In this document: positions 3,001-20,945 of the stretch, piece after piece | Layout of the letters: each line of letters begins with the position of its first letter | Numbering within the stretch: position 1 is the first letter of the stretch | Assembly: GCF_014646055.1 (NCBI RefSeq) | Contig: NZ_BMMS01000017.1 | Location: 947-50,451, forward strand | Length of the DNA stretch: 49,505 nt | Direction: 5' to 3' | Source of the DNA: Wenjunlia tyrosinilytica | Lineage (GTDB): Bacteria > Actinomycetota > Actinomycetes > Streptomycetales > Streptomycetaceae | The notes under the pieces: generated by a model | What the model saw: only the letters and a program-made list of their open reading frames with translations | Told to the model about the DNA's origin: nothing | Databases searched by the model: none | Translations under genes and position numbers: made by a program

Positions 3001-6000
3001 GGCCCGCAGGCCACCGGTGGCAAGCAGCCCGGCCAGGTGTTCCGCCCACTCGTCCAGCTCCGCGTAGGTGATGGCGCGCTCACCGTGGACCGCGGCCACC
3101 CGGTCCGGCGTCCGCCGGGCCTGCGCCTCGAACAGCTCGTGCAGGCACAGGTCCCGGGGGAAGTCCAGCCTGTCGCCGGAGAAGTTGCCGGTCAGCTCCC
3201 GGTGTTCGGCGCCGCTGATCAGGTCGAAGCTCGAGATCGGATCGCCGGGCCGGTCGGCCAGGCTGCGCAGCAGGACCAGGAAGTGCTCCCGGAGCCGCAC
3301 CACGTCGGCGGCGTCGAACGCGCTGGTGGCGTACTCGAACAGGCCGGTCAGGCCGGCCCCGGACTCGGAGACGATCAGCGACAGGTCGAACTTGGCCGTG
3401 CCCTCGACGGCGGCGTCGATGCGCCCCTCCAGGGTCACATGCGCGTCGAGGCCGGGCAGCAGGTCCGAGTCGGCGTCCGGGGTCAGCTGCGCGCTCTCGA
3501 AGATGAAGGCGGCCTGCACCAGCGGGTTCAGGTCGGTGCCGCCGGCCGCCCCGGCCGCGACCACCACGTCGGCGAACGGCACCTCGTGGCTGAAAGCGGC
3601 CGCCGTCTCGGCGGCGAGCCTGCCGAGCAGCTCGGTCGCGGCCGGGTCGCCGGACAGGTCGCAGCGCAGCACGACGGTGTTGGAGAAGAAGCCCATCATC
3701 TGCTGCAGCTCGGCCCGGTCCCGGCCGCTGGTGATCGTGCCGACGGCGAAGTCGTCCTGACCGGTGTGCCGCTGCAGCAGGGCGACCCAGGCCGCGAGCA
3801 GGACGGTGTACAGCGTGCAGCCGCAGGCCCTGGCCAAGGCGCGCAGGGCGTCGGCGAGCTCGGTCGGCAGCTCGAAGGATTCGGTGGCGCCGCGGCGGTT
3901 CGGCGCCGCGACCGGCCGCGGCCCGCTCCGCAGCGGCAGCGGCTCGAGCTGGTCGAGGTGCGCGGCCCACCAGTCCAGCGTCCGCCGGTACGCCGGGGTG
4001 TCGCGCCGAGTCCGCTGCCAGCGCGCGAAGTCGGTGTACTGCAGGGCCGGGACCGGCCGGTTGAGGGGCTCGCCGCGGACGGCCGCGCGGTAGTCCTCGA
4101 CCAGTTCGGTGAGCAGCAGGCCGATCGACCAGCCGTCGGTGATGATGTGGTGCTGGGTCAGGGAGAGGATGTGGTCGTGGTCCGACCGGGTGATCAGGAC
4201 CGCGCGCAGCGGCGGACCGGCGCCCAGGTCGAACGCCGTCCGCTGCTGGTCCGCGACGACGGTGTCCGTGACGTCGGCGGCGTCCGGTCGGCCGCGCAGG
4301 TCGAGGTGGCCCAGCTCGACGTCCGCGTCCGGGGACACCAGGGCGCGCGGCATCCCGTCCCGGTCGGTGAACCGGGTTCGCAGGACGGCGTGGCGGGCGA
4401 CGATGCCGCGGAGGCAGGAGGCCAGTACGTCCCGGTCCAGTGGCCCGGTCCAGCGCAGCCGGAAATGCACGTTGTAGAGCGCGCTCGCGCCGTGGGACCG
4501 CTCGATCAGCCACAGGCCGGCCTGGCCGAGGGACAGCGGACTGGTGTCGTCGGCCCGGTCGCCGCCGGCCGGGCGGATCGGCGCTTCCGCCGCGCTGCGG
4601 CCCAGCGTCGCGGCCAGCTCGGCCTCGTGCCGGTCGATCGCCGACCGCAGCTCGCCGGTCAGCGCGCCGGGCGGCGCGTCGACCACGAGCCGGTTGTCGC
4701 CCAGCGCGAACCGGACACCCGCCTTCTCGGCAGTGGAGATCAGCTCGCTGACGTTCCATGCGGTGTCGAGGTACGCCGCCACCGCCGCCGGTGTCGGGTG
4801 GTCGTACAGCAGGGTGGGCGGCAGGGTGAGCCCGGTGACCGCGGCCAGCCGGTGGTGCAGCCGTATCGCCTGCAGGGAGTCGAGTCCGAGCTCACGCAGC
4901 GGACGGTCGGGCGGCACGCTGTCGGCGGGCGACCGGCCGAGTACGGCAGCCGCCTCGCCGGCGACCACGTCCCGCAGCAGGGGACCGCGGGCCGCGCCGG
5001 GCGTCTGCTCGAGCCGCGGTCGCAGGGGCGAGTCGGGGTCGCTGTCGGCCGGGGCAGCCGCCGGCCAGCGCAGCACGGCCTTGAGCTCGCCGTTGCGCAG
5101 CAGGTCGCGGGTGTGCCGTCGGCGCAGCTTTCCGCTCGAGGTCTTGGGCAGCGCGCCCGGCCGGATCAGGGCGACCTCACGGGTGCTCAGCTCGTGTGCG
5201 TCCCAGATGGACTCGGCCAGGTCCTCGGCGACCTTGGTGAGGTCGCCGCGCAGGTGGCCGCCCTTCACCTCGGCGACGATGCCGAGCTGTTCTCCGATGT
5301 CGTCGGCGAGGGCGACGGCGATGCTGTTGCCGGACCGGATCGCCGGATGCTCCTCGACCGTCGCCTCGAGATCCTGCGGGTAGTGGTTCCGGCCGGCCAC
5401 GATGATGAGATCCTTCAGCCGGCCGGTGACGTACAGCTCGCCGTCGCGCAGAAAGCCCAGATCACCGGTACGCAGGAAGTCGTGGCCGACTCGGGACGGC
5501 AGCTTCGCTCCGAAGGCTGCGGCCGTCGCCTCCGGGTTGTTCCAGTAGCCCTGGGTGATACTCTCCCCGGCCAGCCAGATCTCGCCCACCTCGTCGGGGC
5601 CGCACTCGCGGAGCGTCTCCGGGTCGGCGATGGCCACGGTGAACCCGAGCGACGGGCGGCCGCAGCTCACCACGGTCCGGCCGGCCGACCCGGTCGCGGC
5701 GGCGACCACGCTGTTCTGTTCGAGCGCGGCCGGGTCGACCGCAATCCCCGGCTCGGCGCCCAGGGGGCCGTTCGAGACGGAGAGGGTCGCCTCGGCCAGG
5801 CCGTACGAAGGATAGAACGACGATCGGCGGAACCCTGCCGGGGCGAACTGGCGGCTGAAGCTCTCCAGTGTCGCCGGCCGGATCGGCTCGGCCGCGTTGA
5901 CGACCGTTTCCAAGGTGGACAGGTCGAGTCCGGTCAGATCGTCGGCGGTCGCCCGGCCGCAGCACAGCTCGTACGCGAAGTTCGGCCCGTGCACCAGCGT

Positions 6001-10821: not shown

Positions 10822-11160
10822 AGTGCGCGGTCGGCCTCCTCAATGACTGAGTGCGATTCACAATAGCCGAGCCATCCTGCCGGGCCCGGTGGTTGAACCA
10901 TCTGACGGGCATTCGGAGGATTCACGCGAGGGCGCATTTCACGGAAAGAGGAATGGCCCTTCCCAGTTTCCGGTTCGCGCATCCCCGAGCAATGCACACG
11001 TCTGCCTGTCACCGGCTCCGGAGCTGAGTGGGCATACATGTGCGCAGCTCAGGAGGGGTGCCGCAGGGCGGCTACGGCGAGCGTGCGGTCCGCTGAGGCT
11101 CGTGTACACCGCGCAGCGCCGATTGCAAGGCCTTGGCCAACCATCTTCTCGTAAGGGCCC

Positions 11161-11191
11161 TTGACAAAACTCTGGCCAGCAGGAATAAGCT
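11161..11191 (+). promoter_or_regulatory. Promoter of the ROK-YhfX-permease operon
   Basis: A perfect TTGACA -35 at 11161-11166 is followed by TAAGCT (TAnnnT, 11186-11191) after 19 bases, or AATAAG after 17. It lies about 50 bp upstream of the ROK start and fits a principal-sigma promoter. Confidence 0.6.
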
Positions 11192-11206
11192 CATACCCGC
11201 ATTTGA

Positions 11207-11219
11207 TTTCATCCTGAAA
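11207..11219. promoter_or_regulatory. Inverted repeat TTTCATCCTGAAA, candidate ROK operator
   Basis: TTTCA and TGAAA are perfect arms around TCC, in an AT-rich patch between the predicted -10 and the ribosome site of the ROK gene. A repressor bound here would block the operon promoter. Autoregulation is inferred. Confidence 0.5.
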
Positions 11220-11237
11220 CAAAAGAAGGGCGCTGGA

Positions 11238-12410
11238 GTGGAGAGCAGTGATGCCCGACTCGCCAATCGAGCGGCCGTACTGAACGAGCTGCTGTCCCGG
11301 GACACGGCCACCCGTGTCACGATCGCCGTTCGGACGGGGCTGAGCAAGGCCACCGTCTCCCGCGTCACCGACGACCTCATCCAGGAGGGGCTTGTCCGCG
11401 AGAACGGTCCGCTGCCGGGTTCCGGCCCCGGCCGGCAGGCGCTGGCGCTGAGTATCGCGGGCGAGGACAAGTACGTGTGCGGGGTCGACCTCGGCGGCAG
11501 CAACACCCGCTTCCTGGTGACCGACGTCGCCGGCCGGGTCCGCGCCTGGGCCCGTGAGGCCACTCCTCGCACCGCCACGACCGCCGAGACCGCCCGGTGG
11601 CTCACCGATCGAGTCACCGCTCTGGTCGGATCCGGCGAGCTCCACGTGACCGCGATCGGCCTTCCCGGCGCGGTGCACCCCATCACACAGAGCGTGCGGA
11701 CCGTCCCCAACCTTCCGCAGGTGGCGGGGACCGCGTTCACCGAGACCGTGGCGGCGGCCCTGCCCGGCACCACGATCTTCGACAACGACGCCAATGTGGC
11801 GCTGCTCGGGGAGGTCACCGCTGGCGCGGCCCGCGGGCGCGGGACCGCGGTCATGATCAGCATCGGTACGGGGCTGGGCGCCTCCGTCTACCTCGACGGA
11901 CGGTTGCTGACGGGACGCACCGGGGCGGTGGGCGAATTCGGGGTCCTGCCGTATGCGGACGGCACCTTGGAGAGCGTGATGTCCGGTGCCGGGATGGTGG
12001 ACAGGGCGCGGCGGCTGGGCTTCGAGGTCCGGGACGCCGTGCAGATCTTCGACCGGGGGGAACCGCAAGCCGTTCTGCGCGACGCCACCGCCGCCCTGCT
12101 CAGCATGGTGACCACGCTCAAAGTCGCGTACGAACCGGAGGTCGTGGTGCTGGGCGGGGGGGTCGCGCCCAGGCTGGCCGCCAGGCTCGATGCTCTGAGC
12201 TGGTTGCTGGACGATCCCACCCCCGAACCCCCGGAGATCGCACTGTCGACCCTCGGTGACCCGGCGGGAGCGATCGGTGCCCTGGTGGCCGCACTCCACT
12301 GCCACTACCGGGCCTTCGACATACACACGCCTGATCTCGGCGGTGTCGCCACTACCCTGCTGCGCTCTCTGCCAGGTGAGGAGTCCCATGTTCCTGCGCC
12401 GTCTGCGTGA
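11238..12410 (+). CDS. ROK-family regulator with altered ligand/zinc site
   Basis: A 390-residue protein with an N-terminal helix-turn-helix (about residues 22-55, VTIAVRTGLSKATVSRVTDD) and a C-terminal ROK domain (GVDLGGSNTR, FDNDANVALLGE, SIGTGLG). GTG 11238 is chosen because AAGAAGGG sits eight bases upstream; frames starting earlier lack a ribosome site and cross the promoter. Unusually, the stretch that in most ROK proteins carries E-x-G-H and a cysteine zinc cluster reads GEFGVLPYADGTLE: the Glu remains, but the His and all zinc cysteines are missing. Its partners handle amino acids rather than sugars, so the ligand may not be a sugar. The downstream YhfX-type gene overlaps its end by 23 bases, indicating translational coupling. 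Confidence 0.88.
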   Translation: MESSDARLANRAAVLNELLSRDTATRVTIAVRTGLSKATVSRVTDDLIQEGLVRENGPLPGSGPGRQALALSIAGEDKYVCGVDLGGSNTRFLVTDVAGRVRAWAREATPRTATTAETARWLTDRVTALVGSGELHVTAIGLPGAVHPITQSVRTVPNLPQVAGTAFTETVAAALPGTTIFDNDANVALLGEVTAGAARGRGTAVMISIGTGLGASVYLDGRLLTGRTGAVGEFGVLPYADGTLESVMSGAGMVDRARRLGFEVRDAVQIFDRGEPQAVLRDATAALLSMVTTLKVAYEPEVVVLGGGVAPRLAARLDALSWLLDDPTPEPPEIALSTLGDPAGAIGALVAALHCHYRAFDIHTPDLGGVATTLLRSLPGEESHVPAPSA

Positions 12411-13602
12411 AACCAACCCCGGGCTGGCGGCCGCCGCCGTACGCCTGCACCAGGAGGAGGCTCTTCTCGCCAACACCTACCTGCTCGATCTCGACGCCCT
12501 GCACGCGAACGCCTCCGCTCAGGTGTCCGAGGCCGCGCGGCACGGACTGTCTCTCTATGCCATGGCCAAGCAGTTCGGTCGCAACCCGGACGCGCTGCGC
12601 ACCCTCGCCGAGGCAGGCATCGACCGTGCGGTGTGCGTCGATCTCCAGGGCATGGAGGCCGTGCTCCGGGCCGGAACCCGCGTCGGCCACGTGGGCCACC
12701 TCGTGCAACCCCACCGCGGCAGCGAGGACGCCGTGCTCGCCGCGGAACCCGAGGTCGTCACGCTCTTCGACGAGCGGATCGCGGCCCGGATCGGCGCGGC
12801 GGCCGTGCGGGCCGGGCGGGTTCAGCCGATACTGCTGCGGGTCCGCGGCCCCGAGGACAGCTACTACTTCGGCCACGCGGGCGGATTCCCCCTGGCAGAC
12901 ATCGAGAAGTCCGCGGCGCTGGTCGACGGGATCGACGGGCTGCGGGTGGCGGGAGTCACGAACTTTCCCTGCATGGCCGCGGACCAGGCGACCCGCTCCG
13001 TGCGGCCCACCCGCAATTTCGCGACTCTCGTCGAAGCCGCGGACCGGCTGCGGACCGCCGGATTCGAGATCACCCAGGTCAACGCCCCGGGGACCACGTC
13101 GGCCGGGACGTTCGCCGAGCAGGCCCGGTACGGCGCCACTCATGTCGAACCGGGCAACGGACTGCACGGCACCACTCCCCTGCATCGCTTCGACCCCTGC
13201 CAGCCCGAGATCCCAGCGATCGTCTACGTCTCCGAGGTGTCCCACCTGGACGGCGACCACGCCTACGTCTTCGCGGCCGGCTACTACGTCGACAAGGTCC
13301 TCGGCGACTACCGGCTGACCGCCTTGTGCGGTTCCGACCCGGACAACCTCAACGAGTTCGAGGTGGAGACCGCGGACGCGGGGGCCATCCACTACTACTG
13401 CCGGCTGCGCGACGCGCGGCGCCGGGGCGTCCGCGTCGGCGACTCGGTCGTCTTCTGCTTCCGCCCGCAGGTCTTCGTCACGCGTGGACGTACGCAGGCC
13501 GTGGCCGGAATCCACCCCAGGAATGCCGCGGGACCGGCGGCACGCCTGGATCTACGGGGCGTCTACGACGGGGAGGCCCGTCCTGTCACCGGGGTGGCGT
13601 GA
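12388..13602 (+). CDS. YhfX-type PLP enzyme (alanine racemase N-terminal fold)
   Basis: A 404-residue protein resembling E. coli YhfX along its length as I recall it: TYLLDLDAL, AMAKQFGRNP (the Lys is the likely PLP-binding residue), GHLVQ, TNFPC, QVNAPGTTSAGT, YGATHVEPGNGLHGT and CFRPQVFVTRG. The fold-type III barrel suggests racemization, deamination or aldol chemistry on an amino acid. The real substrate of YhfX proteins is not established. ATG 12388 has GAGGAG four bases upstream and starts inside the ROK gene, so the two are coupled. The permease follows after 29 bases. Together they suggest uptake and conversion of an unusual, perhaps D-configured, amino acid. Confidence 0.85.
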   Translation: MFLRRLRETNPGLAAAAVRLHQEEALLANTYLLDLDALHANASAQVSEAARHGLSLYAMAKQFGRNPDALRTLAEAGIDRAVCVDLQGMEAVLRAGTRVGHVGHLVQPHRGSEDAVLAAEPEVVTLFDERIAARIGAAAVRAGRVQPILLRVRGPEDSYYFGHAGGFPLADIEKSAALVDGIDGLRVAGVTNFPCMAADQATRSVRPTRNFATLVEAADRLRTAGFEITQVNAPGTTSAGTFAEQARYGATHVEPGNGLHGTTPLHRFDPCQPEIPAIVYVSEVSHLDGDHAYVFAAGYYVDKVLGDYRLTALCGSDPDNLNEFEVETADAGAIHYYCRLRDARRRGVRVGDSVVFCFRPQVFVTRGRTQAVAGIHPRNAAGPAARLDLRGVYDGEARPVTGVA

Positions 13603-13631
13603 GCCACCCCACCGCCGCAAGGAGATCCACA

Positions 13632-15053
13632 ATGGACAACCAACCCTCAAGACTGCGCAGCGGCGCGCTCGGCGCCCTCGGCGCCGCAGCCATAGCCATG
13701 GCGTTCATGGGCCCCGCGACCAGTGTCTTCTTCAACACACCCCTGGCGGCCGCGGCCGCCGGCTATGCCCTGCCACTGGCGATCCTGCTCGCCCTGGTGG
13801 TCTGCCTTCTCGTCGCGTCCGTCATCGCGTCCTTCGCCCGCAAGCTGCCGACGGCCGGCTTCGCCTACACCTTCAACACCCACGGCTTCGGCCGACGCGG
13901 CGGCTTCCTGTCCGGCTGGCTGCTGCTCCTGGCCTACGGCATGGTCGGCCCCATGCTCCTGTCGGCGATCGGATCGTTCACCTCCACCTTCTTCCGGGAC
14001 GAGTTCCACAGGGACGTGCCGTGGTGGAGCCTGACCTTGTTCTACGGGGCGGCCATCTGGGGCATCAGCGCCCTGGGGGTCTCCCAGTCGGCCAAGACAG
14101 CGCTCATCTTCCTGGTTCTGGAAGTCGGGGTGATGGTCTCGCTCTTCGCCATCGTCCTGGGCAAGGGGGGCGCCGACGGGCTCAGCCTGGCCCCGCTGAC
14201 GCCAGGGGCATCCGCAGGCGGTATCGCCGGCCTCGGCAAGGGGATGCTGTGGGGGGTCCTGATGTTCATCGGGTTCGAATCCGCGGCCACGCTCGGCGAG
14301 GAGGCCAGGTCGGCACGGCGCGCCATCCCGATCGCACTGTTCACCGCCGTGCTCGCCATCGGCGCCTTCTATGTGCTGTCCGGCTACACGGCCGCCGTCG
14401 GCTTCGGCGACCATGGCGGCCTGGCCAAGGACAGTGAGCCGTGGACGACACTGATGAGCAAGTACTGGGGTCTGGGCTGGCTGCTTGCGCTCACCGTGCT
14501 CAACAGCATGTTCGCCAACCTGATCTCCGGTGTCACCGCGCAGGTCCGGGTGGTCTTCGCGATGGGCCGGGAGGGCCTCATCCCGCGTCGGCTCGGAGTG
14601 ATCGGCGCCCGGCTCGTACCGCAGGCCGCTCTCGGCTTCTACATGGCCTTCTCGCTGTCGGCCGCGCTGATCGGCGGGGTCTGGATCTCCCCGCTGGGCA
14701 TGTACGGCTTCGCGGGCACCATTGTCGGTCTGAGCATGGTCGTGGTCTACATCACCATGAGCCTGGCTCTGATCCGCTTCTACCTCCGTGAACATCGGGC
14801 GGAGTTCTCCGCGCTGCGTCAAGGAGTGGTTCCCGTCGCAGCGGCCCTGCTGCTCCTGCTCCCCGTCTACGGCCAACTGGACCCCCTGCCCACCGGACCG
14901 AACAGGGTAGCGCTGTTCCTGATCGTCGGCTGGATGGCGGCGGGGCTGGCGTACCTGGTGTGGATAGGGGCCAGCCGGCCCGACCTGCTGTCCGCCATGG
15001 GCAGGGTCTGGGGTGACGAACCGGCTGAAGTCTCGCCCGTGGCTCAGGTCTGA
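13632..15053 (+). CDS. APC-superfamily amino acid permease
   Basis: A 473-residue inner-membrane transporter with about twelve hydrophobic helices. The first helix carries the glycine-rich APC signature (GALGAAAIAMAFMGPATSVF), and the GFESAATLGEEAR motif typical of amino-acid permeases lies near residue 215. AAGGAG ends seven bases before the ATG. It is the last gene of the ROK-YhfX-permease operon and is followed by two hairpins. The likely role is proton-coupled import of the amino acid handled by the YhfX-type enzyme. The substrate is not readable from sequence. Confidence 0.9.
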   Translation: MDNQPSRLRSGALGALGAAAIAMAFMGPATSVFFNTPLAAAAAGYALPLAILLALVVCLLVASVIASFARKLPTAGFAYTFNTHGFGRRGGFLSGWLLLLAYGMVGPMLLSAIGSFTSTFFRDEFHRDVPWWSLTLFYGAAIWGISALGVSQSAKTALIFLVLEVGVMVSLFAIVLGKGGADGLSLAPLTPGASAGGIAGLGKGMLWGVLMFIGFESAATLGEEARSARRAIPIALFTAVLAIGAFYVLSGYTAAVGFGDHGGLAKDSEPWTTLMSKYWGLGWLLALTVLNSMFANLISGVTAQVRVVFAMGREGLIPRRLGVIGARLVPQAALGFYMAFSLSAALIGGVWISPLGMYGFAGTIVGLSMVVVYITMSLALIRFYLREHRAEFSALRQGVVPVAAALLLLLPVYGQLDPLPTGPNRVALFLIVGWMAAGLAYLVWIGASRPDLLSAMGRVWGDEPAEVSPVAQV

Positions 15054-15073
15054 GCCGGACTCGTGGGCTGATG

Positions 15074-15136
15074 GGCCGAGTGTGCTCGGCCGGTGAGTGG
15101 GTCCTGTCCTCGCGTGCACGGGCCGCGGGGACAGGA
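15074..15136. terminator. Two stem-loops between convergent genes
   Basis: GGCCGAG-TGTG-CTCGGCC (15074-15091) is a 7-bp perfect hairpin. TCCTGTCC (15102-15109) pairs with GGACAGGA (15129-15136). They lie between the permease stop and the end of the convergent propeller gene and probably end transcription in both directions. No T-run is present, as is common in Streptomyces. Confidence 0.6.
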
Positions 15137-15174
15137 TTCTCAGGGATGCCGCGCCTGCACGGCGACCCGAGGCG

Positions 15175-16377
15175 TCATGCGGCGGCGATACCCTCCATGC
15201 CGCCCGAATCGGGTGAGAAACGCGGCAGACCCTCGGTGGCCTTGGTGACCAGGGTCAATGTGCCGTTGGCCTCGACCCGGAAGCCGTCGACGTTGCCGGT
15301 CGTGGCGTTCTGTACGTAGAGGAAGGCGCCGTCAGCGGAGGCGGCGATGTCGATCGCGCCACGGGAGTCGGCCGACAACGGCACCGCTTGCCTGGCCACC
15401 ACGCCGACCTTCCCGGCCGGGTTCACCGAGTAGGCGGTCACCGCTGAGTTGCCGGTGCTCGCGCCGTAGAAGAAGCCACCCGCGGCCTCGATCCAGCACA
15501 GGGTGTTCTGTCCGTTCGGCACCGCGGCCGACACGGTGGTCAGCTTGCCCTGGGCGCTGACCTCGTAGGTGCTGACCGTCGACTTCTCGGCTTCGGTGAC
15601 GATCATCCGGCCGCCCTGGTCGAAAGTGAAGCCGAAGGGGACATTGCCCGCCGACTTGTTGGATACGGCCCTTTCCGCGAGGGTGCCGTCGGCCGCGACC
15701 GGGAAGACCTCGATCGTATTGGTCTTCTTGATGGTCACAGCGAGATTCTTGCCGTCGGGCGTGAATGAGACCTGGGCGGGGTTGTCGGTGAAGACCGGGA
15801 CGGTGGGGCCCTTGAAGCCGAGCAGTCGCTTCGAGTCGGGCATGGGCTTCAGGCCCCTGTCGGTGATGGTGAAGCCCTGCACCGAGGTGTCGCCGCCGCC
15901 GTTCAGCACATACGCCGTGTCACCGTGCACCGCCACCGACAACGGGAAGTCGCCTCCAGAGGAGGCAGAGTGGCGGCCCGAGAGCTTCTGGCCGGACACG
16001 TTGAAGGAGGTGACCGAGCCACTGCCCGCGTTGACGGCGAGCAACTGGTGGTGACGCGCGGCGTAGACCAAGGAGCCCTGCGAGGCGAGGGCGTCGGTGG
16101 GCGCTCCTGTGGCGACCGCGCCCTTTCCACCGGTCGGATAGGTACGGGCGGCGGTCAGTTCGCCGGTATCGGAGCGCTTGAAGACGTGGATGGTGTTGCC
16201 GGACACCTCGTTGCCCTGGACGAATACCGCGTGGTCGGCGCCAGTGGCCTCGGCGGGATTGTGTTCCTCGCCGGCGGTGGCCAGGCTTAACGTCGCCACA
16301 GTGGCTGCCACCGTGATCACGGCGACGGACAGGCCGACCACGCGGCTCTTCATACGGGTCCTGCGGCGTGTGCTCAT
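15175..16377 (-). CDS. Secreted lactonase-like beta-propeller protein
   Basis: A 400-residue exported protein. A basic start (RRRTRMKSR) and hydrophobic core (VVGLSVAVITVAATVATLSL) form a signal peptide ending near residue 35. The rest is a series of propeller-type repeats (GSVTSFNVSGQKLSG, NAVSVS-like FPLSVAVHGDTAYVLN, PAQVSFTPDGKNLAVTIK, NGTLTLV) like the YVTN/6-phosphogluconolactonase group. ATG 16377 is preferred because AGGAGG lies ten bases upstream; ATG 16353 is an alternative. It lies 161 bp downstream of the ECF-like gene on the same strand and may be its target or operon partner. Enzyme activity is uncertain; many such propellers are binding proteins. Confidence 0.8.
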   Translation of the reverse strand: MSTRRRTRMKSRVVGLSVAVITVAATVATLSLATAGEEHNPAEATGADHAVFVQGNEVSGNTIHVFKRSDTGELTAARTYPTGGKGAVATGAPTDALASQGSLVYAARHHQLLAVNAGSGSVTSFNVSGQKLSGRHSASSGGDFPLSVAVHGDTAYVLNGGGDTSVQGFTITDRGLKPMPDSKRLLGFKGPTVPVFTDNPAQVSFTPDGKNLAVTIKKTNTIEVFPVAADGTLAERAVSNKSAGNVPFGFTFDQGGRMIVTEAEKSTVSTYEVSAQGKLTTVSAAVPNGQNTLCWIEAAGGFFYGASTGNSAVTAYSVNPAGKVGVVARQAVPLSADSRGAIDIAASADGAFLYVQNATTGNVDGFRVEANGTLTLVTKATEGLPRFSPDSGGMEGIAAA

Positions 16378-16538
16378 TTCGCGGATGCCTCCTGAGTGGG
16401 GGAACGGGTATCACCCTGGAGAGCTGGGCAGGAGGACACGGGCGGTTCCGGGGACACGTCATGATTTCGTAAGGCCCCGAAACCGATCGGCTCCGGGCCT
16501 GCGGGGCTTCCGCAACCTGGCCATCAGCACGATCCGTG

Positions 16539-18029
16539 TCACAGGTCGGCCGCCCACCGGTCCGCGGCGAACCACAGCACCTCGGTGCACGGCAGGGCCG
16601 ACGGTGGGCAACTCGCGGTCAGAAACACGTCGTGGACGCCCTTGGTCGCCGCGATCGGGACGGACACCTCGCCCAGTGAGCCGTCGGCTGGTGCCGCAAA
16701 CACCGCGAGCGGGCGCGCGGCGAGCGAGTCCAGTCGCACTTCCAGAACGGCGTGCGCGCCGACCGGGGCCGAGATCCCGGCGCTGAGCCGAGTGGCCGGA
16801 GTGCCGGTGAAATCCACTCGGTCGTAGCGCAGCCAGGAAGAGGGGCCGAGTGATCGCGCCCGCGGATCGCCGCTGCCGGGCGCGCTGTAGTCCTGCACCG
16901 CGTATGTGTCGCCGCGCACCCGCGGGGTGCCCGGCAAGGCCGGCTTTCCCTGCGGTGCGCCGCGCACCAGGGCGACCAGCACGGCGGCGAGTGCCACGGC
17001 ACCGCAGCCACCGGCCCACAGCAGGAGGTGCCGTCGGCCCGGGACCGCGCTCCCGCGCCACTTGGGCCTGCCGCCCCAGCCGACGGGCAGCGCCTTGGGA
17101 CAGAACGCGGGAACGGGTTCGGGGAGGGAATCGGGTGGGGGTTCGGGCAGCGGGCTCTCGATGTCCACGCCGAGCAGCGCCAGTTCGAGGAACCGCGGTT
17201 CGCGCTTCGGCGGCGCGGTGGATGCCTTGGTCGCCTGATAGGTGTTTGCCGGCCACCAGCCCAGAAGCAGGGGCGGCAGCGTCCTCCGCAGCCAGGTGGT
17301 CAGTTCCTTCAGCTCCGTGTAGACGGCCAGACAGTCGGAGCAGGACCGCAGATGCCCGATGATCGCGTGCAGGGCCGGATACCCGTCCGGCCGCGCTGCG
17401 GCCTCCAGTTGTCCCGCGGCGCCCTGGCAGTCCTCGCCGATCCGTCGGACGTAGGCGTCGGCGACGGCCTCGCGCAGACTGTCCGTCGCCTGCTCGGTCA
17501 TCGGGGCGAGCTGGTCCAGGTCCAGCCCGATGATCCGGGCCACCAGCGCCGGCTCGTCCCGCTCCACGACGGCGTGCCACAGCAGGCACTGCGCGGACTC
17601 CGGCAGGCTGGTGAACGCGGCGACGAGGGACCAGTCGTCGTTCAGCGGCCACTGGCAGCCACCGCCCACCCAACTGCGGAACCTCGGGGTGAAGTGGACC
17701 CCGGACTCCTGAGCCGACTGCTGTACGGCTGCGGTGCGCACGGCGGCCAGCAGTCGTATTCGCAGGCAGCCCCGGTGGCGCCGGTCGAGCACCGCGCGGG
17801 TCCCGTCCACGGTCGCCCGCAGCACCTGGGCGAAGGCCCGGCAGGCGAGTTGGTGCGCGTCGGCGGGGCAACTGGCGCATTGGGCGGCATAGCCGAACAC
17901 CGCGGGATAGTGGCGGCGGTAGAGCGTCCGGAACGATTCGATCGCCCCCTCGCGCACCAGGCCGAGCAACTCGGCGTCGGAGCGGGATTCCTGGCCACTG
18001 CCGGAACGGAGACCTCGGCGCAGCAGCAT
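16539..18029 (-). CDS. ECF sigma-like protein fused to zinc-finger-like, membrane and outer carbohydrate-binding-like parts
   Basis: A 496-residue single chain. The N-terminal part has ECF region 2 character (SDAELLGLVREGAIESFRTL, then YRRHYPAVFGYA), followed by a weak region 4 (LPESAQCLLWHAVVE). Near residue 225 is HAIIGHLRSCSDC, a His-Cys-Cys pattern like zinc-finger anti-sigma factors. A Pro-rich linker precedes one membrane helix (LLLWAGGCGAVALAAVLVAL, about 340-360). The outer segment (about 375-496) resembles a beta-sandwich carbohydrate-binding domain. ATG 18029 has AGGAGG six bases upstream; a GTG at 18080 has none. An ECF group with membrane-anchored extensions is known (I recall ECF53), and signal-dependent cleavage releasing the sigma part would be the model. 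The target promoters are unknown. Confidence 0.78.
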   Translation of the reverse strand: MLLRRGLRSGSGQESRSDAELLGLVREGAIESFRTLYRRHYPAVFGYAAQCASCPADAHQLACRAFAQVLRATVDGTRAVLDRRHRGCLRIRLLAAVRTAAVQQSAQESGVHFTPRFRSWVGGGCQWPLNDDWSLVAAFTSLPESAQCLLWHAVVERDEPALVARIIGLDLDQLAPMTEQATDSLREAVADAYVRRIGEDCQGAAGQLEAAARPDGYPALHAIIGHLRSCSDCLAVYTELKELTTWLRRTLPPLLLGWWPANTYQATKASTAPPKREPRFLELALLGVDIESPLPEPPPDSLPEPVPAFCPKALPVGWGGRPKWRGSAVPGRRHLLLWAGGCGAVALAAVLVALVRGAPQGKPALPGTPRVRGDTYAVQDYSAPGSGDPRARSLGPSSWLRYDRVDFTGTPATRLSAGISAPVGAHAVLEVRLDSLAARPLAVFAAPADGSLGEVSVPIAATKGVHDVFLTASCPPSALPCTEVLWFAADRWAADL

Positions 18030-18621: not shown

Positions 18622-19109
18622 ACCTAGGACGATTCTTCATAACTGCCGGTCAGATCCCCTATTGCGAGAGAAAAATCCGAGCAGTCGAGGTGGGGCGTCA
18701 GAAGGGATGCCGATGGTGGCCCGGGGGACGGCAGTACCTCGGCACAGGCCCGCACAGCCGCCTCGGGGGTGTGTGATGACCCTCGCGCTCCCCTTGACCC
18801 CGGCACGCTCAGCGGCTGGGTGGATCTGGGGCCAACAGGGCGACCCCCGGCGGGCGCTGTCCTGCGTCGAGCGCGCCCTGAGCCTTCACCACAACCCCGC
18901 CTGCCCTGCGCCGACGTGAAGATCAGTGCCGCGGTACGTACCGGCCGGCGGGGCTCCCGGCCAACGCGCGTCCGTGGCCGATCATCACTTTCGTCCGCGG
19001 AGGCATCCTCCCGCAGACCGATCCCCATGACCTTCGTTGGCCCTTGAATCCCCCGGAACCCGGGTCGGCAACCCAGCAAGCCGACCCATCCCCATCGGAG
19101 GTCAGTGAG
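18622..19109. other. Spacer between small minus-strand genes and protease
   Basis: Apart from the SARP relic at 18768-18892 there is no gene. Bases 18893-19109 form the upstream region of the protease; no clear promoter was recognised. Confidence 0.5.
18768..18892 (+). pseudogene. Internally deleted relic of the SARP gene (36327-39203)
   Basis: Two pieces of the downstream SARP locus occur here in inverted orientation and almost abutting. Bases 18768-18810 match 39313-39355 (SARP leader) at 37 of 43 positions. Bases 18821-18892 match 36816-36887 (TPR-coding) at 68 of 72 positions. The roughly 2.4 kb between them in the intact copy is missing. The TPR piece is still readable (GWIWGQQGDPRRALSCVERA against GWIWDQQGVPRRALSCVERS). 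This is a decayed paralogue, not a functional gene. Confidence 0.85.
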
Positions 19110-20945
19110 TTGAGCCCACGACGTGTGAACAAGCGGATCGGCGCAATCGCCGGAGCTGCCACGGCAGCGGCCGCGGCAGCGGCGCTGGTGTTGCCCTACG
19201 CCAACGCCAACTCGGACGCACCACCGAGCCCACGGGCATTCGCCCAACAGGACGCAGCGAAGCTCGGGTTCACCCTCGCGTCCAAGCTCGGCGAGAACAC
19301 CGCCGGCTGGTACTACGACGGCCAGGCCGACCACTTGGTCGTGAACGTGTTGGACGGCAAGGCCGCGGAACGGGTCCGGGCGGAGGGCGCCGTGGCCAAA
19401 CTCGTCCAGAACAGCCTGGCGGAGCTGGATTCCACCACGCAAACACTGGACAAGTCGGCCGCGATACCCGGCACCGCCTGGTCGATCGACCCGAAGACCA
19501 ACAAGGTCGCGGTCATCGCAGACCGCACGGTCTCAGGCAAGAAGTGGGAAACACTGAAGAAGGTCGTCACCGGGCTGGGCGGCACGGCGTCCGTCGAGCG
19601 CACCGACGATGAGTTCAAGCAGTTCGTCCGGCTCGACGACGGGGAGACTGACGGCGGCTCCGAAACGGGCGGTGCCGACGACGGCGGCGCTGATGCGGGC
19701 ACGGACGGCGGCGCCGACGACGGCGGAACCGACGCGGGCACCGACGGCGGCTCCGATGACGGCGGCGCTGATGCGGGCACCGACGGGGGCGCCGACGACG
19801 GCGGAACCGACGCCGGCACCGACGGCGGCTCCGATGACGGCGGCGCTGATGCGGGCACCGACGGCGGTGCCGACGGTGGCGCTGACGGTGGAGGCGACGG
19901 CGGAGGCGACGGCGAGACCACCGGACTCATCGGCGGCCAAGCCATCTGGAGCAAAGACGGAGGCCGCTGCTCGCTCGGCTTCAACGTCACCGCCGACGGA
20001 GCGCCCGCCTTCCTGACGGCAGGTCACTGCACCGCCCACGCGGATACCTGGGCGGCCAGGCCGGGCGGCGAGACAGTGGCCACCGAAGCGAAGTCCGAGT
20101 TCCCCGGGAGCGACTACGCCCTGGTGAAGTACAACGACGCGAACACCAAGCCCAAGAGCGCGGTCGATCTGCAGAACGGCACCACACAGGAGATCACCCA
20201 GGCCGCCGAGGCGAGCGTGGGCATGGAGGTGCAGCGCAGCGGCAGCACAACCGGTCTGCACGACGGCAAAGTGACCGCCCTCAACGCCACGGTCCACTAC
20301 AAGAGCGGCGGCACCGTCAAGGGCGCCATCCAGACCGACGTGTGCTCCGAGTCTGGTGACAGCGGCGGCCCGCTGTTCTCCGGCAACTCGGCGCTGGGTC
20401 TGCTCTCCGGCGGCGGCGGTGACTGCGACCAGGGCGGCAGGAGCTTCTACCAGCCGGTCACCAAGGCGCTGGAGGCCACGGGCTCCGAACTCGGCGGGGG
20501 CGACGGCGGCGGTGGAGGCGCTGACGGCGGAACCAACACAGGCGGTACCAACACAGGCGGTACCAACACAGGGGGCACCGACACAGGTGGTACCGACGCG
20601 GGCACCAACGGCGGTGCCGATGACGGCGGAACCGACGCAGGCACCGACGGCGGAACCGACGCGGGAACTGATGGCGGAACCGACGACGGCGGAACCGACG
20701 AGGGCACCGACGGCGGAACCGACGAGGGCACCGACGGCGGAACCGACGACGGTGGAACCGACGAGGGCACCGACGGCGGAACCGATGACGGCGGAACCGA
20801 CGAGGGCACCGACGGCGGCTCCGACGACGGTGGTGCCGATGACGGTGGGGTCGACGAGGGCACCGACGGCGGTGCCGACGATGGTGGACCCTTGTCGGCG
20901 ACGCGGGCGATAACTCCGGTGGCGCCGCTGGCGCCGCGGAGGTGA
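19110..20945 (+). CDS. Secreted chymotrypsin-like serine protease (streptogrisin type) with acidic repeat tracts
   Basis: A 611-residue preproprotease. A signal peptide ([20 protein letters not shown]) ends near residue 34. A streptogrisin-type propeptide follows to about 170. The S1 domain has all catalytic residues: His306 in TAGHCT, Asp335 in GSDYALVKY and Ser418 in GDSGGPL. Two low-complexity Gly/Asp/Thr tracts flank the domain (about 174-268 and 470-594). Both are strongly acidic and unlike the short linkers of ordinary streptogrisins. TTG 19110 follows CGGAGG by eight bases; the frame extends upstream without a ribosome site. The last 17 residues ([18 protein letters not shown] region) differ in composition, and the -1 frame continues in acidic Gly-rich style to a stop at 20983, so a 1-base loss near 20890-20897 is likely. 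It acts outside the cell. Confidence 0.9.
19630..19915 (+). repeat. In-gene tandem repeat, 39/78-bp periodicity
   Basis: Encodes repeats of a 13-residue unit such as [13 protein letters not shown] and [14 protein letters not shown] 39-bp segment starting at 19746 recurs exactly at 19824, giving a 78-bp higher-order period. Such arrays change length easily by slippage or recombination. Confidence 0.85.
20520..20890 (+). repeat. Second in-gene repeat tract, C-terminal to protease domain
   Basis: Begins with GGTNTGGTNTGGTNT and continues in [13 protein letters not shown]-type units. It differs from the first tract by Glu-containing units and more Thr. It ends where the suspected frameshift lies. 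Confidence 0.85.

Follow-up and report, generated by a model that had tools for sequence, protein, structure and literature searches.

YhfX of Escherichia coli is encoded in the yhf operon, which also has yhfS, yhfT, yhfU, php, yhfW, yhfY and yhfZ. A crystal structure of the protein exists (4kbx), yet no activity or function of YhfX was found described in the literature searched. ROK repressors of sugar operons (NagC, Mlc, Lmo0178 and the Thermotoga ROK proteins) combine a helix-turn-helix (HTH) and a ROK domain with a palindromic operator. The characterised Thermotoga ROK regulators are sugar-responsive according to the available text of PMC3750489. In this study, a 49,505-nucleotide (nt) stretch of Wenjunlia tyrosinilytica DNA (contig NZ_BMMS01000017.1; hereafter the window), from a genome of 8.49 Mb in 172 contigs, was analysed. 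The window contains an operon of a ROK regulator gene, a yhfX gene, and a permease gene. Its YhfX shares the KQxGR motif and the fold of the E. coli protein, whereas the E. coli operon has no ROK gene, and yhfS, yhfT, yhfU, php, and yhfW were not found in the window by tblastn (E ≤ 1e-6). Its regulator has the same architecture as the sugar-operon repressors but has neither the ExGH His nor the zinc cysteines, and adjoins a pyridoxal 5'-phosphate (PLP) enzyme and an APC permease.

Chances are about even that the three genes are a catabolic operon under the control of its own regulator and represent a shorter, actinobacterial version of a wider ROK-YhfX module, with a sugar-derived amine or amino acid as ligand and YhfX as a lyase. 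This reading draws on the computed gene set, operator conservation, pocket residues, folds, and neighbours across phyla. Through the ROK-linked clade, YhfX is tied to a definite operon and to a regulator whose operator is conserved, and its candidate substrates are narrowed down. With such an operon and operator, the function of YhfX becomes testable by an inducer screen on TTTCANNNTGAAA. In the literature searched, mostly non-subscription papers, no description of the operon was found, nor of the ROK-YhfX module of Actinomycetota and Pseudomonadota, which seems to be previously undescribed.

Operon and predicted operator

The sequence-only reading had proposed a three-gene operon with a repeat as likely operator, and both proposals held. 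The genes are consecutive on the + strand (11238-15053): the ROK-family transcriptional regulator (11238-12410, GTG start, 390 residues), the YhfX-family fold-type-III PLP enzyme (12388-13602, 404 residues), and the APC-superfamily permease (13632-15053, 473 residues). The YhfX scan of genome contigs, which reaches close relatives only, returned eight loci. The identical order ROK-YhfX-permease was found in seven of them: three Actinomadura, two Nonomuraea, one Sphaerisporangium, and one Streptosporangiaceae metagenome-assembled genome (MAG). The coupling of the regulator to a YhfX-type enzyme and an amino acid permease noticed earlier thus recurs in other genomes. The eighth locus (L015, a Chloroflexi MAG whose contig ends at yhfX) has an M20 hydrolase of the ArgE/DapE type just upstream and no ROK gene within the 6 kb examined. 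If yhfX is taken to start at the conserved MFL, it shares 23 nt with the ROK gene both in the window and in the seven close loci, an overlap which suggests that their translation is coupled.

The predicted operator TTTCATCCTGAAA is a 5-3-5 inverted repeat at 11207-11219, between the promoter and the likely ribosome-binding site of the ROK gene (AGAAGG, 11224-11229, + strand, inferred from sequence). The motif T[TC]TCANNNTGAAA was found 14-27 nt 5' of the ROK start in the window, L009-L013, and L016, that is, at 7/7 full-length ROK genes with the same gene order, with a single copy per locus on the ROK strand. This conservation was reproduced in 0/2000 sets of shuffled upstream regions. The arms are constant across loci except at the second place, which is T or C, and the three central bases are variable. 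Within the window TTTCANNNTGAAA occurs once, and 0/100 shuffles contain it. The motif T[TC]TCANNNTGAAA precedes 11/13 full-length ROK genes of the window's ROK clade, and in all four Embleya-type loci two such sites form one large palindrome near the start codon. It was not found at ten other ROK loci searched. These results strongly support the TTTCATCCTGAAA palindrome as the predicted conserved operator of the ROK regulator.

In the Streptosporangiaceae MAG (L014), TTGACA is kept and the operator motif is gone (3 mismatches at the best place). The ROK gene of this locus (4374-5432), beside yhfX and the permease, lacks the first 79 residues including the HTH region. Operator and DNA-binding domain were lost together here, with the caution that the locus is from a MAG. 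A wide ROK regulon was also considered and rejected, since TYTCANNNTGAAAC is present at two places in the 8.49-Mb genome, one being the operon and the other on contig C70, where the surroundings were read as sequence.

The proposed promoter consists of TTGACA at -35 (11161-11166) and the -10-like ATAAGC (11185-11190) on the + strand, with an 18-nt spacer, identified by eye against relatives. The earlier proposal of a TTGACA promoter was borne out in part: the claim rests on TTGAC being conserved 72-85 nt 5' of the ROK start in 7/7 upstream regions, and a strict sigma-70 scan of 10900-15300 listed zero promoters. The predicted operator spans about +10 to +22 relative to the predicted transcription start. 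This position fits a roadblock repressor, and the ROK protein may act as one. By eye, a different palindrome, GTTCG...CGAA, precedes the ROK gene in four of five alphaproteobacterial loci (L099, L100, L102, and L104). The yhfX gene of L016 (6001-7190) lies in two frames meeting at about 6369, through a frameshift or sequencing error.

Regulator, enzyme, and permease

The ROK regulator scored 110.4 bits for PF00480 (cut-off 22.9), with the ROK domain at residues 81-351, and its N-terminal winged HTH at residues 12-54 scored 29.4 bits for MarR_2 (cut-off 27). Motif comparison and alignment placed E233-F-G-V236 (codons 11934-11945, + strand) at the ExGH position, with His changed to Val. The CxCGxxGC zinc motif is absent from the window protein, as had been stated from the sequence, while both glutamates and the Asn-Asp (ND) pair are retained. 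In all, 23 YhfX-linked regulators were compared with nine presumed kinases of the modules, with the genome's 19 other ROK proteins, and with NagC and Mlc. None of the 23 YhfX-linked regulators has the motif CxCGxxGCx(E/D), and the ExGH His is missing in 22 of them, being kept in L084; by eye, none of the 23 has lost either glutamate or the ND pair. N158, N183, D184, E233, and E245 are invariant in 20/20 aligned YhfX-linked ROK proteins from two phyla (alignment A2).

The regulator had earlier been called degenerate, but it is not an isolated case. Seven of the 19 other ROK proteins in the same genome have no zinc cysteines, six of these seven also have no His, and the zinc motif therefore does not define the ROK family. 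According to the available text of PMC5458393, the motif is absent from NanK of Fusobacterium nucleatum, and NanK of Listeria monocytogenes has Tyr at the His position and has also lost the cysteine motif. These NanK proteins resemble the window ROK in the lost cysteines and differ from it in being kinases. Because zinc-less ROK proteins are common and the pocket residues are invariant, the idea of a degenerate, dying ROK was rejected, and the window protein should be termed zinc-less rather than degenerate.

In the ROK tree, in which several rows carry letter-composition warnings, the window regulator lies within a clade of 14 regulators (support 100/100). The remaining nine YhfX-linked regulators were placed elsewhere, among the zinc-less ROK proteins of the window's genome, and other ROK proteins of this genome fall between the YhfX-linked groups. 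A single origin of the 23 regulators was not supported, since the starred branches force two label changes (set against the nine presumed kinases alone). Zinc-less ROK regulators of at least two lineages thus adjoin a single enzyme family, and ROK proteins seem to have been recruited into YhfX modules more than once. Such repeated recruitment would argue for a ligand suited to the ROK pocket.

The predicted ROK structure had a mean predicted local distance difference test (pLDDT) score of 86.8. Its best match was MecR2 of Staphylococcus aureus (Z 33.2, root-mean-square deviation (rmsd) 3.7, 344 residues aligned), a comparison by fold and not by zinc site; MecR2 differs in being a methicillin resistance factor according to its PDB title, not the regulator of a catabolic operon. 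Operator-bound Lmo0178 matched with Z 32.0 and rmsd 3.9 over 358 residues.

The enzyme scored 72.7 bits for PF21279, the YhfX-like C-terminal domain (cut-off 27), and 53.3 bits for PF01168, Ala_racemase_N (cut-off 24.1). No other domain was matched at E ≤ 0.001, including the C-terminal domain of alanine racemase. A single-sequence PDB search at the same threshold gave E. coli YhfX (4kbx) as the sole match (E 1.6e-68). The presumed PLP lysine is K61 of the KQxGR motif (codon 12568-12570, + strand); K61, Q62, G64, and R65 are invariant in 34/34 YhfX rows (alignment A1). The predicted structure (pLDDT 92.7) superposed on 4kbx with Z 52.6 and rmsd 1.7 over 384 residues at 36% identity. Lower values were obtained for D-threonine aldolases and hydroxyaspartate aldolase (Z 27.7-28.8), diaminopimelate decarboxylases (up to 27.0; AQ1208 27.3), D-serine dehydratase (25.5-25.9), and alanine racemases (24-26).

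Since yhfX is frequently annotated as alanine racemase, the ROK gene could be a chance neighbour in an ordinary operon for an alanine or D-amino-acid racemase. In the profile search against PDB sequences, D-3-hydroxyaspartate aldolase (2.1e-7) and D-threonine aldolase (9.9e-7) were matched far better than alanine racemase (0.015), which disfavours a racemase; the structural Z-scores separate these families poorly. The domain content given above and a ROK gene beside yhfX in 23/26 rows on the window side of the YhfX tree, from two phyla, also stand against a racemase operon, which we consider highly improbable.

The hydroxyaspartate and D-threonine aldolases are thus the nearest characterised enzymes by profile, which favours a lyase over a racemase. 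They share fold type III with YhfX, with rmsd 3.1-3.3 over 339-344 residues; the profile match is confined to the barrel, identity is 16-17%, and YhfX has another C-terminal domain (YhfX-like_C in Pfam). Judged by the motif of the aldolase family, YhfX probably lacks the metal ligands of these enzymes. For the YhfX activity, a reasonable guess is a lyase whose substrate is a D-beta-hydroxy-amino acid.

The permease scored 87.5 bits for PF13520 (cut-off 27). Its nearest solved structures, 6f34 (E 5.2e-13) and 5oqt (E 1.3e-12), are both titled amino acid transporter. The MGPATS motif of its transmembrane helix 1 is conserved in the 13/13 module permeases besides that of the window, and ATS aligns with the GTG turn of helix 1 in 6f34 and 5oqt. 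The replacement of GTG by ATS perhaps means that the substrate is not a plain amino acid. An FrlA-like permease was rejected, as identity was just 26% over 66 residues (E 0.002).

Distribution and module variants

YhfX matches at E ≤ 1e-20 were present in 34/394 genomes of the family, 20/394 of the class, and 5/396 of the phylum; the three samples overlap and each includes the window's genome. The neighbourhood survey was made without matches H3, H7-H12, H15, H16, H18, and H19 and some YhfX-positive genomes, and the loci of G037 and G1008 covered about 2 kb each. Among 20 regions of the family, 16 (L053-L068) matched every E. coli yhf gene but yhfY, seven of eight in all (yhfS, yhfT, yhfU, yhfW, yhfX, yhfZ, and php), and four had a ROK-type module. 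No ROK gene was matched in L053-L068. The 48-row YhfX tree split, with support 100/98, into a ROK-module side of 26 rows and a yhf side of 22, two of which have a partial yhf set. The midpoint root served for drawing only, and a long-branch warning applies to the E. coli and Cetobacterium rows. A regulator-type ROK was in the module for the 23 rows mentioned above (that of L014 without HTH). Among the three exceptions, contig ends truncate L015 and L096, and L105, on a plasmid, has ABC pieces and a SIS gene only.

Three further E. coli-like yhf operons were seen in actinobacterial genomes (L090-L092), among nine regions. At the Cetobacterium locus (L103), the annotation places a ROK regulator gene (16282-17397) some 4 kb past the yhf operon, with iron-transport genes between. 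L088 and L089 have yhfU, yhfW, and yhfX with an FrlR-like GntR gene, and with php, yhfS, and a SIS gene nearby; they are perhaps a form intermediate between the two kinds. A yhfX-like frame (33.8%) is also present in an 11.7-kb faecal record named "Bacteriophage sp." (H20, MT836239.1, 6846-8000), possibly a mislabelled bacterial piece.

Fuller modules were found around related yhfX genes. In the Embleya-type loci (L049, L050, L051, and L098), the gene order is ROK regulator, permease, YhfX, presumed kinase (a second ROK protein, which has no HTH), and SIS protein. G005, G020, and G030, of the same family as the window, have a locus closely resembling the Embleya (Streptomycetaceae) record. L052 has a presumed kinase, a permease, SIS, and YhfX, with a divergent ROK. 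In L084-L087, genes for a second ROK protein and a PTE-like protein accompany those for a ribose-type ABC importer, with SIS in three of the four and an additional APC permease in L087. The window's own ROK clade includes the regulators of the Embleya-type loci, and in L084 and L086 it is accompanied by the ribose-type ABC importer, the PTE-like protein, the presumed kinase, and SIS. The alphaproteobacterial plasmids (L099-L102 and L104) have ROK, M20, a ribose-type ABC importer, and YhfX, with a SIS protein in addition in Rhizobium (L101), and this ROK-M20-ABC-YhfX combination is also seen in L097, a locus from the phylum of the window.

The M20 hydrolases scanned (L015 and L099) were ArgE/DapE-like. 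Three SIS proteins scanned were best matched by NagB-II (173, 161, and 275 bits), all below the cut-off of 430. Two presumed kinases were best matched in NCBIfam by ROK glucokinase or allose kinase, far below the cut-offs, and the module substrate-binding protein matched rhizopine, allose, and ribose binders best, below cut-off. The ROK-YhfX modules therefore appear to combine sugar-type and amino-acid-type genes.

An Amadori-type system, by analogy with frl/fra, was another candidate: a fructosyl- or glycosyl-amino acid would be taken up by the importer, phosphorylated by the kinase, and split by a SIS deglycase, and YhfX would act on the freed amino acid. Modules with SIS, presumed kinase, and importer are consistent with it, as are the E. 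coli yhf genes adjoining frl and the 26% identity of the L052 SIS protein to FrlB over 205 residues. This SIS protein, however, scored 161 bits as NagB-II against 31.3 bits as FrlB (cut-off 430), and the permease is not FrlA-like. The module kinase is a ROK protein, whereas FrlD is of the PfkB type; both kinase and SIS are missing from the window operon, and no FrlB match was found in the window. An Amadori-type system is distinctly unlikely on this evidence.

By PF21279 there is a single yhfX gene in the window's genome, that of the operon. A region of contig C23 (L124, C23:67000-85000) carries at 8604-14209 genes for ROK, M20, a substrate-binding protein, an ABC permease, and an ABC ATPase with 43-70% identity to the L099 genes. 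It has no yhfX between the ABC permease and ATPase genes, the place of yhfX in L099-L102 and L104. Since the only genomic yhfX is in the window, its enzyme may serve both the operon and the C23 locus.

Predicted function of the operon

A working scheme, in which we infer repression and induction, the direction of transport, a sugar-amine ligand, and a lyase reaction, is as follows. Without ligand, a ROK dimer would occupy TTTCANNNTGAAA, which lies shortly after the predicted transcription start, and would block the single promoter of ROK-yhfX-permease. The APC permease would import a small molecule, most likely an amine- or amino-acid-bearing sugar derivative. This molecule or its metabolite would fill the retained sugar pocket of ROK and release the block. 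YhfX would then act on the amino group, with aldol cleavage or elimination likelier than racemisation. The invariant sugar-pocket residues and the sugar-type genes of the fuller modules favour a sugar-derived amino compound, and a plain amino acid seems less likely as the ROK ligand than a sugar-derived amine.

Several results weigh against this scheme. The structural Z-scores of YhfX differ little (24-29) among aldolases, decarboxylases, and racemases. The full-length ROK-clade members L084 and L086 have no TTTCANNNTGAAA motif. NCBIfam does not fix the sugar specificity of the presumed kinases, with scores far below the cut-offs. MecR2 works with a protein partner, and the same is possible for the window ROK. 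Genes for a kinase, SIS, or hydrolase are missing from the window operon, and its genome contains no close copy of the module kinase (eight matches, 27-37% identity) and a best SIS match of just 42% identity. The window version may therefore skip the phosphorylation route or handle a simpler molecule. The importer, moreover, belongs to an amino-acid family, which fits a plain amino acid as ligand.

The last points bear on the possibility raised from the sequence, namely that the ROK pocket has been repurposed for a plain amino acid or a YhfX product. The operon would then bring in a D- or L-amino acid and convert it. The APC amino-acid transporter family of the permease, the loss of the ROK His and zinc cysteines, the M20 hydrolase upstream of yhfX in L015 and the alphaproteobacterial modules, and the lack of a close copy of the module kinase in the genome are consistent with amino-acid sensing. 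All other sugar-contact residues are invariant (20/20), however, a presumed kinase, SIS, and ribose-type ABC importer accompany the same ROK clade elsewhere, and zinc-less ROK proteins are common. We regard amino-acid sensing as unlikely.

Also considered was a new pathway whose substrates would be sugar-derived D-beta-hydroxy-alpha-amino acids, namely 2-amino-2-deoxy-aldonates (for example D-glucosaminate) or the phosphates of these. Import would be by the amino-acid or ribose-type carrier, and deacylation or lactone opening by the M20 and PTE-like enzymes where present. The zinc-less ROK pocket would sense the compound, and YhfX would split C2-C3 as an aldolase, or dehydrate. One substrate class of this type would explain sugar and amino-acid genes in one operon, and it would give the YhfX family a function, if true. 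The pathway is speculative and very doubtful at present.

Downstream of the operon, a hairpin 3' of the permease gene (15098-15140, + strand, by folding) is a possible terminator with no U tract. It was strong (z -3.70 over a 116-nt region) and did not appear in the terminator-scan list. One TetR-type and one lactonase-like gene were found among the flanking genes scanned, and neither points to a task shared with the operon. Further downstream in the window, a long frame (19044-20945) was seen by eye to have many Asp-Gly-Gly-Thr repeats around a protease-like centre.

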